From assembly GCF_051622035.1 (NCBI RefSeq), contig NC_135355.1, positions 37,367,986 through 37,431,985 of the forward strand: DNA of 64,000 nt. Direction: 5' to 3'. Shown here piece by piece: positions 1-63,722 of the stretch; positions within the stretch are counted from its first letter, which is position 1, and each line of letters opens with the position of its first letter. The DNA is from Arctopsyche grandis. Taxonomy: Eukaryota; Arthropoda; Insecta; Trichoptera; Hydropsychidae. The position numbers and the translations under genes were made by a program. Below the pieces are notes generated by a model. It did no database searches. It saw only the letters and a program-made list of their open reading frames with translations, and was not told the DNA's origin.

Positions 1-130
1 TAGATGAGTAAAAGGTAAAAAGTACCATAATAATATTTACGATGAAAAAGCAAATCTAAAGGCCTGAAAAGAACGTCACAAAACTGTTAATAAGAAAATG
101 AAAAATATTTATCAAATATAACATAATCAC

Positions 131-1507
<1,377 letters not shown>

Positions 1508-1679
1508 GTTTGCGCAATGTTGAAGACCTCGACTGTGAACGCTCGGTGTTTTGTTTGCAGGTGATGACTCGAGGCTTTCTTCGTAAAAAGAGACGGTGCG
1601 ATTATAATTTTGATAAACAAAAGTAGGTTTTCAGCTGAAAAAAGTATGTGGCCATGTTGTAATCCGCGAAAAGACCTGA

Positions 1680-1845
1680 CAGATTGAACGATTGGTCTGC
1701 GGAGGAGGGCGGGCGGGTGAGAGGTGGGGGGATGGGGGCGCGAGGGGCGGAGGCTCGAATGGGGCCCGAAAGTGCGGGCGGCGGAGGCCTAGTTCTTTGC
1801 GGCCGGTTCGGCGCCCGCTGACAGCCGCGGCCTTCACAACACTTT
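1680..1845. promoter_or_regulatory. GC-rich, CpG-dense block upstream of the FERM gene
   Basis: About 165 bases of very GC-rich DNA stand out from AT-rich surroundings, 170-340 bases upstream of the FERM start codon. This fits a promoter or 5'UTR of that minus-strand gene. No TATA box was seen. The rest of 1508-3490 holds only short repeats and no convincing gene. Confidence 0.35.
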
Positions 1846-2463
1846 TTAAACACCCCTAGCACCATTCTTTCCTACCATTAATAATATTGACCATTTCGGT
1901 TATTTTTTACCATATCGTACTAATATAGAATAACATAGATGAGGTATTGCAAACAAATTTGCCCAGATAAAGCGGACCAAACAACTGGGAGGTGTGGGGG
2001 AATGAATGAAAAAAAAGGAAAGAAGTATGGAGGATGAACGAATGAGACGACTGGCATGTTAATGCACGTGTTTATTATATGACAGCTGAAGACAGAGTGA
2101 GTAGTAGCTCTCCGAACCCAGCCGAGTTGGTTCCCACTCGCAGGAAGGCAACCAAACTCGACCATGTCGTATAAGCGAGCCGCCACAGATGCTTCGAAAA
2201 TGAAAAAGCTTAGAAGCTAGCTAGCCACTAAAAGATTGCACTCTTTTTCTTTGGTTGCACTCTTTTAAATGGAGACAAATTTCGAGCGTCAAGCCCCATC
2301 TATGCTATTCTATATCTATGCTCATTTGCACTAGAAAGAGCTATTTATGTAGAAATGTTTGACTGATCCTCCTGTTTTTTTGTCATAATAATCGAAGCTT
2401 ATTATATATTGTCAATTATTTTTTTACAATTATTGACGATATTTGACGTTAGTCGAGTCGCAA

Positions 2464-2594
2464 TGGCGCCGTCCACACACACGATATCAACTAACGATAT
2501 TTCCATATCCAATTCCCATATTGCAATCTGTGCTTGCTATTTAGGAACTGGATATGGAAAATATTGCAAATATCGTGTGAGTGCACGGCGCCAA
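2464..2594. mobile_element. Short palindromic MITE with GGCGCC ends
   Basis: The left arm (GGCGCCGTCCACACACACGA) and the right arm, read backwards (GGCGCCGTGCACTCACACGA), match over about 50 bases, including a shared TTCCATATCCA stretch. This is the structure of a short inverted-repeat transposon. The superfamily is not clear. Confidence 0.55.
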
Positions 2595-2655
2595 TGAATA
2601 TATTACCTTGATGAAACGTGTAGGTGATGTGAATTCTACTTCCACATATACGTAT

Positions 2656-3115
2656 TTTGTAGTAAACGGATTATTGCGCAAATTATGATTGCGCGCACAA
2701 CAATCTTGCCACAAAAATCACGAATACGGAATATCAGACACTCGAGTTCTCTTTAGGATAATATTGTGTACGGATAGCTTTCGATTGATAGACTTTAGGT
2801 GCCAGATGTAACGTGATCGAGATTTTAGTAACGTGTGCGAGATCAATTTTTACGGAAAGGTACTGGAACGCCGTTCCACCGCGTAAAAGCCCTGATAATA
2901 TGTATAATATAGGTAATTGGATTATTATAGTCACATTACGATCGCCCAAAAGACAATTTTTGCCATGAAAATCGCGAATACGGAATATTTCGCACTCGAG
3001 TTCTCATTAGTATGATAGTTATCGTTAGTATCATGGACTTTTTAACTGCCAGATGTTCCGTTATAGAGATTTTAGTATTTTTTGGACGAACGCTTTGTGA
3101 CCAATAATCACCGAA
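2656..3115. mobile_element. Two tandem or nested copies of the ACTAAAATCTCGAT foldback family
   Basis: The stretch starts GTAAACGGATTATTGCGC and ends ACCAATAATCACCGAACC. Inside are two units with the family motifs: GCCAGATGTTCCGTTATAGA, GAGATTTTAGTA and CTCGAGTTCTC. Related copies lie at 7810-8016, 14335-14460, 49796-50175 and 60487-60690. Between the units is a GGAACGCCGTTCC-containing junction (about 2866-2885), also found at 10780-10800. Confidence 0.6.
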
Positions 3116-3595
3116 CCATAATATATGTTAACTAAGAATTTCTTTCCAAGAATAATTTCAATTATTAACTGAAGATCTATACATTGAATGCCGACGCTTA
3201 CAACTGTGACGTTGAAGCTATCTTTAATTTCAACAATTTATAAATCAGTAGTTTATGTTGAGAAAGTTGATATTTAAACGCCCAACTGAAGATCGATTAC
3301 AATTGTGCATTGTTTTATAAAATCAAAATTAAAAAAAACAAATTTTAAATTTCTTCTTCTTAATGCCTTGTCCGCATCCGGACGTTGGCGACCACCTCGT
3401 CGATTATTTGCAGATGTGTCATTAGTGGTTAATGTTAATGTTTTGATATTATCAACGCTCAATTGTGAATGAGCGCGTACTGAAAGTGAAAGTTCGAAGA
3501 AAGTGAGGGGGTTAGATAAGATGTGGCAGACATGCGTGAGCGCTTTCAGTGAACGCCACCAGCTCGATATTCTAAATCTGTCAGTCGTCTTGACG

Positions 3596-3866
3596 ATGAG
3601 GATAAGACGCCCTCGCGACATATCAACTCTCGACTTGGTTGTGGTGACAGTGTTGGGAGTCGTCGGCGGGGTCTACATCTGGAGGCCGATCTTCGACAAA
3701 CGGAGCGCCGAGCAGCCAAAGGAAGCCGAAGCCCTACCGAAATCCACAGACTCTGCGGCCACAGGTTCGTCGCTTGCATAACCTCATAACCTCACCGCAG
3801 TGCGATCAATCAAACTTGTGCTAAAACTTCAATGCATTTCACTTTTCAGCAAATACAACAGCATGA
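3596..3866 (+). CDS. PIGBOS1: PIGBOS1-like single-span membrane microprotein (upstream ORF of a bicistronic gene)
   Basis: The protein has one hydrophobic helix near its N-terminus, VVVTVLGVVGGVYIWRPIF, close to the TVLGIAGGVYIFQPVF core of vertebrate PIGBOS1, a 54-residue outer-mitochondrial-membrane protein that contacts the ER. A lysine/glutamate-rich tail follows. I chose ATG 3596 by family length; ATG 3521 is in frame upstream and would add 25 residues. Unspliced, the frame ends at TAA 3779-3781. A CAG|GTTCGT donor after 3764 and a pyrimidine-rich CAG acceptor before 3850 define an 85-base intron. With it removed the protein is 61 residues and stops at TGA 3864-3866, one base inside the next ORF's ATG. 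Homology is clear in the helix and weak elsewhere. Confidence 0.7.
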
Positions 3867-4072
3867 CAGATAAGTTCGGCCAATTGAAAACTTCCTCCCC
3901 GGGAAGGGGATCTCTCAAGGCCGTGGCAGGCGTCCTTCTAGGAGTCATTTTGTATCGGACTTATATTCTACCGCTTTGGAATAAACAAGACCTCCAGCAG
4001 CAGGAAGCTTATGCTGATTTTTTATACCAACAGGAAACCAAACCTAAAGATTCAGATACATTTTTCGAATGA
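3863..4072 (+). CDS. Small single-span membrane protein, 69 aa (downstream ORF)
   Basis: The frame runs from ATG 3863 to TGA 4070-4072. Residues 17-36 form a hydrophobic helix (SLKAVAGVLLGVILYRTYIL). A polar C-terminal tail follows (PLWNKQDLQQQEAYADFLYQ and onward). The helix-then-P-aromatic pattern resembles the PIGBOS1-like protein just upstream, so it may be a tandem paralogue; a resemblance to the COX-assembly protein SMIM20 is also possible. No name can be given with confidence. The reading frame sits on the second exon of the upstream gene, its ATG overlaps that gene's stop as ATGA, and a poly(A) signal follows 49 bases after its stop. Codon use looks coding. Confidence 0.65.
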   Translation: MTDKFGQLKTSSPGRGSLKAVAGVLLGVILYRTYILPLWNKQDLQQQEAYADFLYQQETKPKDSDTFFE

Positions 4073-4120
4073 TTCAAGTTATTGTCAAAGACTTTATAAT
4101 TAGATGTTATTTATTTTCTA

Positions 4121-4126
4121 AATAAA
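4121..4126 (+). terminator. Poly(A) signal AATAAA of the bicistronic small-protein gene
   Basis: AATAAA lies 49 bases after the second stop codon and is followed by a T-rich stretch. EF1A converges from the other side; a minus-strand AATAAA at 4574-4579 is its likely poly(A) signal. The 450 bases between hold no gene. Confidence 0.6.
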
Positions 4127-4788
4127 TTTGTTATAAATATTAATTTGTTTATTTATTTTTTGCACAGTGCATGCGTCAGTGAGCTGGTCACAAAGCTTAC
4201 CTTCAAATTTACCTGAAGGTCATGTAAAATATTTCATAATCATAATGCGATTTTTCTTGCATTTGTGCAATCACACAAGCATTTTCCATACCAAACAAAA
4301 AAATCATCAGTCAAGCTTTCGATTGTTCTCATTGTTTACAATTGTAATTTCGTTTAAGCGTATCTTTTCACCCATGTGGTCCCCCAAACCATGATTCATA
4401 CTTGCCTTAGCTGAGTCACAATTCAAAGGAAATCCTTTCATTGTGGTTTTTTCCATATGGATCTGCAGTTGTTTAATTAAATTGATGTGTATTTCTGAAA
4501 GTGATAGATTAAAAGGAATCAAGGAGAGGTAATAAATCAAAGAATTAAGAGTTTGATGACCAATGGCTACTCGTTTATTACTATTAAATTACACTTCCCT
4601 TGTGATTATAAAAATATCATCTCGGTATGTATACAAAATTACATAAAATAAACTTAGATCATTATCATAGAATGAAGTAGAAAAATATAGTAAGGAATGA
4701 GTAGAGCCTTTTTCCTGCGGAACACTTTCCGATGAGAAAAGCGTTTTATAAGCAAATTGAAAAGTTGTGCGGCGGTCAAAGGATCTAG

Positions 4789-6180
4789 CTACTTTTTCGC
4801 CTTGGTTGCCTTTTCGGCGGCTTTGGTCACCTTGCCGGCTGAGGGATCCTTGAAGTTGACCGACTTGATGACTCCGACGGCGACCGTCTGCCTCATGTCA
4901 CGCACGGCGAAACGTCCCAGAGGAGGGAACTCCTGGAAAGACTCGACGCACATGGGCTTGGACGGCACCAAGTTGACGATGGCGGCATCTCCAGACTTGA
5001 TCGACTTGGGATTGTCTTCTGTGGATTTACCAGTACGACGGTCGACCTTCTGTTGGATCTCGGCGAACTTGCACGCAATGTGAGCGGTGTGGCAATCGAG
5101 CACGGGCGTGTATCCGTTGGCGATCTGTCCGGGGTGGTTGAGGACGATGACTTGGGCGGTGAAGTCGGCGGCTCCCTTTGGCGGGTTGACTTTGGTGTCT
5201 CCGGCGACGAATCCTCTCCTCAACTCCTTGACGGACACGTTCTTGACGTTGAAACCGACGTTGTCTCCGGGGACGGCCTCTTGCAAGGCTTCGTGGTGCA
5301 TCTCGACGGACTTTACTTCAGTGGTGAGATTAGCCGGGGCGAAGACGACGACGGTGCCGGGCTTGAGGATTCCAGTCTCGACACGACCGACCGGTACCGT
5401 TCCGATACCGCCGATTTTGTACACGTCTTGGAGGGGGAGACGGAGGGCTTTGTCTGTGGGACGAGACGGGGGCACGATGGCGTCGAGGGCTTCGATCAAG
5501 CACTTGCCTTCAGCCTTTCCTTCCTTGCGCTCGACGTTCCATCCCTTGAACCAAGGCATCTTGGCGGAGGGCTCGAGCATGTTGTCTCCGTGCCATCCGG
5601 AGATGGGAACGAAGGCTACGGCAGCGGGATTGTACCCGATCTTCTTGATGTAAGAGGACACTTCCTTCTTGATCTCCTCGAAACGAGACTCGCTGTAGTG
5701 AGGCTCGGTGGAGTCCATCTTGTTGACTCCCACAATGAGCTGCTTAACTCCGAGGGTGAAGGCGAGGAGTGCGTGCTCGCGAGTCTGGCCGTTCTTGGAG
5801 ATACCGGCTTCGAACTCTCCGGTTCCGGCGGCGACGATCAGCACTGCGCAATCGGCCTGCGAGGTGCCAGTGATCATGTTTTTGATGAAATCTCTGTGTC
5901 CGGGGGCGTCGATGATGGTCACGTAGTACCTGGTGGTTTCGAACTTCCACAGGGCGATGTCGATGGTGATACCGCGCTCACGCTCGGCCTTCAGCTTGTC
6001 GAGGACCCACGCGTACTTGAACGAGCCTTTGCCCATCTCCTGCGCCTCCTTCTCGAACTTTTCGATGGTTCTCTTGTCGATGCCGCCGCATTTGTAGATC
6101 AAGTGACCGGTGGTGGTGGACTTGCCGGAATCTACGTGTCCGATGACGACGATGTTGATATGGAACTTTTCCTTACCCAT
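4789..6180 (-). CDS. eEF1A: Translation elongation factor 1-alpha
   Basis: An uninterrupted 463-codon frame matches eEF1A along its whole length (usual length 462-463). It delivers aminoacyl-tRNA to the ribosome with GTP. Visible motifs are the P-loop GHVDSGKST (residues 14-22), DAPGHRDF (switch II, from residue 91), NKMD (153-156) and SGWHGDN; the tail is lysine-rich ([10 protein letters not shown]). ATG 6180 is taken because it begins the invariant MGKEK. Upstream in the same frame the sequence is a splice acceptor (TTTCAG before 6191), so the longer open frame is intronic. The coding part has no introns, which occurs in several insect orders. GC content is far above its surroundings, as expected for a very highly expressed gene. 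Confidence 0.98.
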
Positions 6181-12058: not shown

Positions 12059-13809
12059 ACTACAATGACACTAGTTTATTCCAGATATGCCATATATTTT
12101 TTAATAATATTCATATTTTGAATATATAAAGGGCACTGGAAACATGTTGAGGATGATTTGTCTAGTATCGAATGAATTAACTATGATAGTTAGTGCTATT
12201 TCATTTCCGTGAACTCACAAAATATTTCATTAAATTATTGCGTTGATATTCACTATGATTTCGGCGTTTAAAAGAAATTTAAACGTTCTAAATTATTTTC
12301 ATATTAGAAGAATGAGTTGATATAAAACTATTTATTATACATACATATATAGCATTATGTTAACTGAATATGTTCTAATATTTGGAAATAGAATTTCTAA
12401 AAACTCACAAAATTTCATATTTATTTCGATTTTAATTTTACCTAAGCAATAAATAGAACCGAACTTTGGTTTTTGCAACGTCAATTGAAAAACGATCCCA
12501 AAATATTGATGAAACATAGACTTATATAGTATTTCTTTGGATTTTACTTGAAGGCAATATGCAATATTGCTTAAATATCAGCTTTTATTATTGAAGTTGA
12601 CAAAAACCAGAGCTGTGGATTCAGAACATTTCAAACAGAGTCAGAGTCGTAAAAATCAACCGACTCTGATTCCTTTTTATTTTTTAATTAATAGTATTAC
12701 AGTATGCATCAACTAGAGTCTTTAAGTTTATTAAATAAATCAACTAATAAATGGAAATTTAATAATTTCTTTATAAATCATGAATTTAAATTACATTATA
12801 AATAAAATCGTTGAATTTCACATATATGTAGGTGTATTAATGTGTTCTGGGCAAAACCGATGTTTCCTCTGTCTCATGCTTTTTTTTAATCTCATTGATT
12901 TGTTTGTTTATGAAATTCATAATGTATTAATTTTTATTTATACCTATTTCATTACCAATAATTCAATAGATTGGGCTACATGTCAATTTTTAGTGATTTA
13001 GATCCAGTGATTCTGACTCCAACTTGAAAAATCGTTCAATTTGGAGTCTGAGTCGGATTCGAATTATAAAATAAAGCCAAAGTCGGAGTCGTTAAATTTT
13101 GATCTGACTTTGAAATTTGGGTTTTCATCAGCGCAAATCTGTTCAGTTTATTTCTTTTACATCACATTTATTTATATTTATGAATATTCCTTAACAACGT
13201 TTTGAGAATGGATATTTAATTATCATAGATAAGGGATAGAAAAATAATACATTTTTCATTTAGTAGTTAACAAGATTACCATTGCAAGCACAAGTACAAT
13301 TTAGCAATGACGTTGTGCCAGAAGTACTTTGCAAACCCTGACAAACTTTTGATCTATTCCTATTTTTTTAGTCTATTTCTAGACGAGATTTCTTCCATTC
13401 GCATATAATTTTTACGAAATGTCAATAGTTGAAGTATTGTAATTGTATTGAAATGATTAGTAATCAGAATCGGTCGCTGATCACGTTTCATGGCGTTCCA
13501 TCACGATCATGGCTTTTAAAAAAACTTGTGCGTGTGTGTGGGTATAATAATAATTTTACTTTACTTATGTTTTTTTTATTACAGACGATAATGGAAGAGA
13601 AATATAATGTGATTCCTATCATTCATTTAAATTAGAATTTTATTTAGTTTTAACATATTCGAAATCAGTGATCCAAAATTAGTATAAAAAGTTAACTTAG
13701 CACAATCACAAATTTGTTTCAGCACCGTGTAATTTTTAGTTAGTGTTGAAAATTATGCCCAATACTTTCATTCATGTTCTTTCTAATTATTTCCACACCA
13801 AAATTTTTT

Positions 13810-51482: not shown

Positions 51483-51653
51483 AAAAACCACTTAAACCCC
51501 ATTAAACTTAACATAATAAACAATAGTATTCATCGGGACTTGCTAATGAGCGTACGTGCTCTCTCGTTTATAATCAATCATTCCAGTGTTTCTTAACTAT
51601 TAATTACAAATTCTATTTTATTTATCGAATATTGGCTTTATCACAATATCACA

Positions 51654-53155
51654 ATGTTTAAGTGTGCGCGTTGTAATTCTGAAGGCTTAGAAGGTGTTCT
51701 ATGTGGTGGATGTAAGCTGAAATTTGATTTCCCTTGTTCTGGTTCTACCAAAGCGGGCTACAATAGACTCGGAGGGGATCGTCGGCTCCAGTGGAAGTGT
51801 GCTTCATGCAAGTTGGGCCTTATTCCAACCCCTCCTGGAAGCGTCCCAGCGTCGAGCTCCCCAACCCCAGTATCGATGGATCTTCTGTTGGCTGAAATAC
51901 AAGGCATCAAGATGGACTTAGCCCCTCTCAGATCAATGTCGGATGACATCAAATCCCTGAAATCTGATGTTTCTGATTTGAAGAACTCTTTGGAGATGGC
52001 CCATTCCTTAATAAATGATTTTACACAGAAGATACATAAACTAGAGTCTAGGTTAGATACTCTAGAAAAGACAAACCTTGAGACAGCAACTATCCATAAC
52101 AAGATTGATCACCTTGAACAGAAATTAAATGAGAAGGAACTGTAGGAATCTCGTCATCGTCATCGTCATCGAAACATTCGAGAATATTCCACAACAACAA
52201 ACCACATTCCGCGCAGAACTCGCACACGTAAACAACCCGTGCACTTCTTGGAATCAATCGCCAAATCCTTCGAGAATGTTCCACCCCTCACACTCGAGCG
52301 GAACAAAACCAGTCGAAGCACACCTGCAGCCATTATATTAAACTCAAGCGGAACGCCCCTACCAGGCGAGCGGAACCAAAACGGTCGAAACACGCCGCCG
52401 CCATTAAACTACATCGAGCGGAACGGCGCCAATCGTTCCAGAAAAGTCCACCCCATCGACAAAAGCGCATTCCTCGCTTACGCATCAACAACCACCACCA
52501 TGGGTCAGGTGATTCCAGAAACACTATAAAAGGAGGTACAACCCAAACAACGCCAGTCGACCCACAGCAGCAAGCGTCGACACACAGCAGCAGACCAGTC
52601 AACATCCAGCTCCTGACCTGCCACCACTACACCACGCGGACTTGGAAGATCAACCAGCCGAACGAGCCAGCAACACACTGCCGTATCCAGAGACCTTCCG
52701 AACATAGCCGAACAACGAGCCAGCAACACACTGCCGCATCCAGAGACCTTCTGAACATAGCCGAACGACGAGCCAACAACACACTGCCGCATCCAGAGAC
52801 CTTCTGAACATGAACGAATGCCGAGCCAGCGACACTCTACCATATCCAGAGACCGCTGAACGCCATACTTTTGCCCAAATATAATACCTTTGTACAACCA
52901 TAGGCAAACAATAAAACTTTATAAAACAAGCACAACAGTGTTTCGTTAGACTGGGATACGGTCAACATACATGTACCCCGCCTACAGAACAATGGTCAAG
53001 AAGAAATAATATTGAAATCAAAGGGGTGCCACTCTTTAAAAGCGAAAATCTGATTGACACCATTGTTAATCTGAGCAAGAAAATTAATTATCCCATAACC
53101 CTAATAGAGCACACTGAGGCCCAACGGTATCCGAAAATGCGAAACAATAAAATGA
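51654..53155 (+). mobile_element. LINE ORF1 (CR1/Jockey-like), 5' end retained, interrupted by a solo LTR
   Basis: The frame 51654-52145 begins MFKCARCNSEGLEGVLCGG and forms a PHD-like Cys/His finger (C-x2-C ... CSGS ... C-x2-C), then a proline/serine linker and a coiled coil of about 90 residues, as in CR1-clade ORF1 proteins. After the LTR at 52141-52986 the homology resumes (WSRRNNIEIKGVPLFKSENL, then NYPITLIEHTEAQRYPK), the RRM-like ORF1 core. It stops near 53155, at the GC-rich S6K leader. ORF2 is absent. About 130 bases of AT-rich 5' leader precede the ATG. Keeping the 5' end and losing the 3' end is unusual for a LINE. Confidence 0.7.
52141..52986 (+). mobile_element. Solo LTR inserted in the LINE ORF1
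   Basis: 846 bases bounded by TGTAGG and CCTACA, with exact 4-base duplications GAAC (52137-52140 and 52987-52990). A TATA box (TATAAAAGG near 52525) and AATAAA (near 52910) are in LTR order. A block of about 50 bases (CGAGCCAGCAACACACTGCC) is tandemly repeated three to four times at 52660-52860. No internal region; it is a fossil. Confidence 0.8.

Positions 53156-53551: not shown

Positions 53552-63722
<10,171 letters not shown>

Follow-up and report, generated by a model that had tools for sequence, protein, structure and literature searches.

A PIGBOS1 gene in Arctopsyche grandis with a putative second membrane-protein frame at an ATGA stop/start overlap

Dicistronic genes are established in Drosophila, where FlyBase release 6.04 holds 159 dicistronic pairs, overlapping ones already among them; at loci that are exclusively polycistronic the stop-to-start distance ranges from -34 to 319 nt, and the genes encoded together are similar in about 18% of polycistronic loci (PMC4528330). 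According to the FlyBase authors, most of the fly pairs lack what scanning would require (PMC4528330). Reporters for Drosophila sloth1/2 support leaky scanning, with translation of the first frame lowering the output of the second (PMC9681215), and leaky scanning is likewise given, second-hand, for the fly genes stoned and Snapin (PMC11892635; PMC3372440). The human PIGBOS1 protein resides in the mitochondrial outer membrane, where it binds CLCC1, and its published account describes it without paralogues or homologues (PMC6814811).

Here, we analysed a window of 64,000 nucleotides from the genome of Arctopsyche grandis (Trichoptera: Hydropsychidae; contig NC_135355.1, positions 37,367,986 to 37,431,985 of the forward strand), in which a first-pass annotation had reported a gene with two membrane microproteins joined by an ATGA stop/start overlap. 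As a feature of the sequence this two-frame observation is confirmed, while the interpretation given with it is, as a whole, partly supported. The remark that such an arrangement is rare in animals was overstated in view of the fly pairs and their distances, which place an overlapping stop within a known kind; the stop-to-start distance found here lies within the known dicistronic range if the predicted intron is used. The PIGBOS1 message seems to include a second frame, for another small membrane protein, which makes it a new example of a known arrangement and not a new principle. Within the literature searched, this second frame seems new, given that no title or abstract opening among the matches listed for PIGBOS1 or PIGBOS presents it as a bicistronic gene. 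Because the human protein is described without relatives, a partner frame on the PIGBOS1 mRNA of another animal would name a candidate partner protein.

Layout of the locus and its first frame

All features of the gene lie on the plus strand. Translated base by base, the spliced first frame runs from the ATG at 3596 to a TGA at 3864-3866 and encodes 61 aa; its exon 1 coding part (3596-3764) contains the single membrane span, and a predicted GT...AG intron of 85 bases (3765-3849) separates it from the exon 2 end (3850-3866). The second frame, checked in the same way, extends from the ATG at 3863-3865 to a TGA at 4070-4072 and encodes 69 aa. After removal of the intron the ATGA overlap at 3863-3866 is exactly as first described, the last two bases of the second ATG being the T and G of the first stop. 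In the spliced order, frame 2 can be read upstream of its start without meeting a stop, through exon 1 to 3553, and this extension is free of AUG (spliced, 3553-3862). A motif scan placed a poly(A) signal, AATAAA, at 4121-4126, 48 bases 3' of the frame 2 stop.

The PIGBOS1-like identity proposed for the first frame is well borne out. Frame 1 matched the Pfam PIGBOS1 family (PF23670) with 45.2 bits (E 1e-11; cut-off 27), and no other match emerged from the 475.7 Mb genome in a profile search that treated exons separately and scored the top candidates alone. Its hydropathy maximum of 2.27 falls at residues 12-28 of 61, compared with a span at residues 7-29 of 54 in human PIGBOS1 (PMC6814811), and frame 1 shows the single membrane span on the N-terminal side and the short tail of this protein. 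The products of both frames may be mitochondrial.

An initiator-like TCAGTC at 3581-3586, found by motif scan with the Inr consensus, is a candidate start site. It is the sole TCAGTY in 3200-4300, where one other TCAKTY occurs at 3945; the plus strand of the window holds 37 TCAGTY, and 0.06 are expected per 100 nt. Transcription from the A at 3583 would give a leader of 13 nt, and very short leaders promote bypass of an AUG. If transcription began upstream of 3521, the frame 1 AUG would be preceded by a frame of 6 codons at 3532 and by an in-frame AUG that would yield a protein of 86 aa.

The next gene, in convergent orientation, encodes EF-1 alpha in an uninterrupted frame on the minus strand (4789-6180). 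Upstream of the PIGBOS1 gene lies a hairpin-like inverted repeat at 2461-2596 (27-nt arms, 89%); a stretch near the sloth locus of this genome (L003, about 2908-3036) looked similar by eye at the peptide level, and given this likeness the two may derive from a single short mobile repeat. Two diverged direct repeats also occur upstream, at 2706-2830 and 2960-3077 (58 nt at 83% and 37 nt at 84%, about 250 apart). Farther away, a plus-strand frame at 51597-52145 matched coiled coils and, weakly and below cut-off, a PHD finger (16 bits), and may be the first frame of a non-LTR element, while a very long TA dinucleotide tract at 53987-54514 is open in several frames. No RNA families or tRNAs were reported in the window (ARAGORN, bacterial code).

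Coding potential of the second frame

The second frame (3863-4072) is predicted to encode a single-span membrane protein, with a hydropathy maximum of 1.87; single-sequence structure prediction placed a helix at residues 16-59 (mean pLDDT 71.6, pTM 0.32). The one predicted membrane helix supports its earlier designation as a membrane protein; the window has 70 ATG frames that encode 60-100 aa and, counting frame 2, 23% of them equal or exceed it in hydrophobicity. Composition favours coding, with a G+C content of 43% in frame 2 compared with 30% in 4073-4400, 27% in 4075-4224 and 32% in 3000-3500.

We consider it unlikely that frame 2 is untranslated, the locus being an ordinary PIGBOS1 gene with an open stretch in its 3' UTR. 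The G+C difference from the downstream sequence, the predicted membrane helix and a start context that beats that of frame 1 all argue for a coding role, as does the finding in human cells that 22 of 24 tested overlapping second frames yielded protein (PMC3923131). On the other hand, frame 2 had no Pfam family above cut-off, no solved structure resembled it beyond chance (best E 0.31), and a search of the genome down to E 1 found no second copy. Its codon-position signal was not significant (P 0.18) and was matched by 23% of 480 windows taken as non-coding. An open length at least that of frame 2 arose in 3.5% of cases when its own body was shuffled (20000 shuffles) and in 2.6% when 3866-4400 was shuffled (5000 shuffles). 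A second AATAAA lies within the frame, at 3980, and there is a precedent in the second frame of fly lemming, whose translation was not detectable from the dicistronic mRNA in the published account (PMC3372440). Wider searches yielded no confirmed relative of either frame, or of a two-sequence alignment, in a viral collection, nor of either frame in a prokaryote contig collection; this says little because these collections consist of viral and prokaryote sequence.

Frames 1 and 2 resemble each other, with an alignment score of 44 against a segment-shuffle mean of 23.4, equalled in 0.40% of 5000 shuffles, and this resemblance would fit paralogy, as in sloth1/2. Frame 2 had no match to PF23670, and its score against human PIGBOS1 was equalled in 14% of 2000 shuffles, which is not significant. 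Several other identities were considered and rejected. SMIM20 seemed plausible on visual inspection, and frame 2 scored 41 against the human protein (equalled in 0.5% of 2000 shuffles); orthology was rejected given that frame 2 had no PF15061 match and that a separate SMIM20 match, above cut-off, exists in this genome at C7:18076436-18076543 (35.8 bits). Assignment to COX6C, or to others among 11 human microproteins, was unconvincing given the number of comparisons.

Ribosome access and splicing

Our leading reading, held tentatively and as a serious possibility still short of probable, is that of a two-exon gene with one mRNA in which frame 2 is reached by leaky scanning. One short mRNA would carry the PIGBOS1 homologue, followed by its 69-aa membrane partner. 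Ribosomes would scan from the cap, some initiating at the PIGBOS1 AUG and the remainder bypassing it to initiate at the better-placed frame 2 AUG, which removal of the intron would make accessible by deleting a decoy AUG. The spliced mRNA has no AUG over the 179 nt that separate the two starts. We dropped this depletion as a sign of selection after a synonymous control over 5000 trials, in which recoded frame 1 was free of AUGs in 66% of cases with uniform codons and in 94% with pooled usage; the lack of intervening AUGs is thus mostly due to the amino acids of frame 1. Judged by the fly consensus, (C/A)AA(A/C), which is a rough guide, the start context of frame 1 (GACG) scores 1/4 and that of frame 2 (CAGC) 3/4, although frame 1 does have an A at -3. 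CAAAATG is given as the optimal fly start context (PMC9681215). The EF-1 alpha start here scores 2/4, and because this protein is normally abundant the context score is a weak guide. Leaky scanning fits the layout better than coupling through terminating ribosomes, and would make the two outputs compete, with frame 1 inhibiting frame 2.

The first-pass annotation had instead proposed that terminating ribosomes restart on the second frame, tying the two outputs together. In such termination-reinitiation, a ribosome ending frame 1 at the ATGA would slip back one base and restart on frame 2, which strikes us as improbable here. Frame 1 is short, and a short first frame helps ribosomes to retain initiation factors. 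The AUGA form is among the junctions listed for coupled systems, cellular cases with overlapping stop and start codons include GAD and SLAMF1, and the silkworm retrotransposon SART1 provides coupling in an insect element (PMC5972666); of 24 human transcripts tested for overlapping frames, 5 seemed to rely on coupling (PMC3923131). Against this, frame 1 contains a single UGGGA (the TURBS core), 124 nt upstream of the AUG, compared with a TURBS region roughly 45 nt upstream in influenza B (PMC5972666), and the combination of UGGGA within about 45 nt upstream plus structure was not found at the ATGA junction. Three folded stretches up- and downstream had no unusual RNA structure relative to shuffles (z -0.25, 0.73 and 0.54). 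The end of frame 1 is not aspartate-rich, unlike that of CASQ2, for which the second product was itself 82-fold lower (PMC3923131).

The junction alone is weak evidence, since every TGA stop that follows an A forms ATGA and the overlap can arise by chance in this way. Among the 213 unspliced ATG frames of at least 40 aa in the window, there was one ATGA-joined pair. This pair of short frames, at 13360-13622 on the minus strand, is probably a chance product and illustrates how easily such a junction arises. The junction at the PIGBOS1 locus gains weight from the poly(A) signal of the gene, which sits so close behind the frame 2 stop. Nevertheless, the overlap was the sole coupling element present among those checked, and the proposed restart that would tie the outputs together is therefore unsupported.

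The 85-base intron is a plausible prediction, in agreement with the first-pass annotation. Scored with a generic matrix and ranked relative to the GTs and AGs of the window, the donor CAG/GTTCGT (3765) exceeds 97.4% of GTs and the acceptor TTTCACTTTTCAG (3849) exceeds 99.2% of AGs. Donor 3765 was the only one with a positive score among 11 donors tested in 3640-3850, and together the two sites form the best-scoring pair in the region. That no intron is used seems quite unlikely given these ranks (top 2.6% and top 0.8% by the generic matrix). In that case frame 1 would stop at the TAA at 3779-3781, and frame 2 would start 81 nt later, past an AUG at 3832. The stop at 3781 under retention, as the earlier account had it, is borne out by translation, and unspliced frame 1 is likewise 61 aa, with the last five residues changed, and matches PF23670 with 45.0 bits. 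The match lies almost wholly within exon 1, so the PIGBOS1 match does not prove the intron. In favour of an unused intron, the donor carries T at +3 and C at +4, bases seldom seen at these positions. The coding sequence of human PIGBOS1 likewise occupies one exon (PMC6814811). A retrocopy of the spliced mRNA, considered as proof of the intron, was not found in the genome, where a 600-base DNA query covering the gene recovered just its own locus.

Splicing could act as a switch, as had been suggested, albeit in a manner other than the proposed loss of coupling: retention would add a competing AUG. The intron AUG at 3832 has a weak context and opens a 13-codon frame that ends at 3873, beyond the frame 2 AUG. 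If retained, it would compete with the frame 2 AUG under leaky scanning or reinitiation; as a decoy lost on splicing, it should let splicing favour frame 2.

Other acceptors allow further outcomes. An acceptor at 3861 would still leave the ATGA, and joining donor 3765 to an acceptor at 3869 gives an uninterrupted 123-aa fusion of both frames. A composite reading, in which PIGBOS1 and frame 2 would be tandem paralogues on one mRNA, with a choice among acceptors (3849/3861/3869) toggling between separate and fused products and with some AUGA reinitiation, is in our view very unlikely; if true, it would make the locus a second sloth-like pair. Still less probable is a simple fused two-span protein of 123 aa made through acceptor 3869, bypassing the frame 1 stop and the second AUG: the frame is open, but this acceptor scores -3.9 compared with 5.1 for 3849, two AGs come before it, and chance would put about one-third of alternative acceptors in frame. 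An IRES inside frame 1 giving access to frame 2 is the least likely reading: the 115 nt that precede the junction showed no more folding than their shuffles (z 0.54), although the FlyBase authors think that IRES use may be common in fly dicistronic genes (PMC4528330).

Comparison with known systems

The AUGA/UAAUG systems of caliciviruses, influenza B and SART1 have overlapping stop and start codons like those of this locus. They differ from the junction here, which lacks both a TURBS core in the appropriate place and unusual structure. FlyBase dicistronic genes rest on cDNA or RNA-Seq, whereas the pair described here is known from sequence alone. With human PIGBOS1 (54 aa), frame 1 shares the Pfam family, and the two are similar in size and in the position of the span. 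A single exon, opposite PIGB, holds the human coding sequence, and its account in PMC6814811 describes no second frame, whereas a predicted intron lies near the end of the frame in A. grandis and a second frame follows.

The genome of A. grandis has its own sloth pair, on the minus strand of contig C8, where sloth1 (SMIM4, PF15114; L003 1241-1441) adjoins sloth2 (C12orf73, PF14990; L003 1456-1689), with matches of 103.4 and 46.6 bits, respectively, and an 11-nt spacer. Sloth1 and sloth2 lying side by side indicates that such pairs occur in this animal. Their start contexts score 3/4 and then 4/4, the same ordering as in the PIGBOS1 locus. The sloth1 homologue has one internal in-frame AUG, whereas frame 1 has none; with this AUG and a first context of 3/4, the pair is an imperfect model for leaky scanning. 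It could nonetheless serve as a natural control from the same genome for reporter tests.

The two loci differ in their families, PF15114 and PF14990 for the sloths compared with PF23670 and none here, and neither frame 1 nor frame 2 matches either sloth family. Both sloth proteins have known orthologues, whereas none was found for frame 2, and the sloth spacer of 5 nt in the fly and 11 nt in this genome is replaced by an overlap at the PIGBOS1 locus. Drosophila sloth1/sloth2 and the PIGBOS1 locus are alike in having two single-span microproteins in adjacent frames with a very short junction, and in both the lower start-context score comes first and the higher one second.
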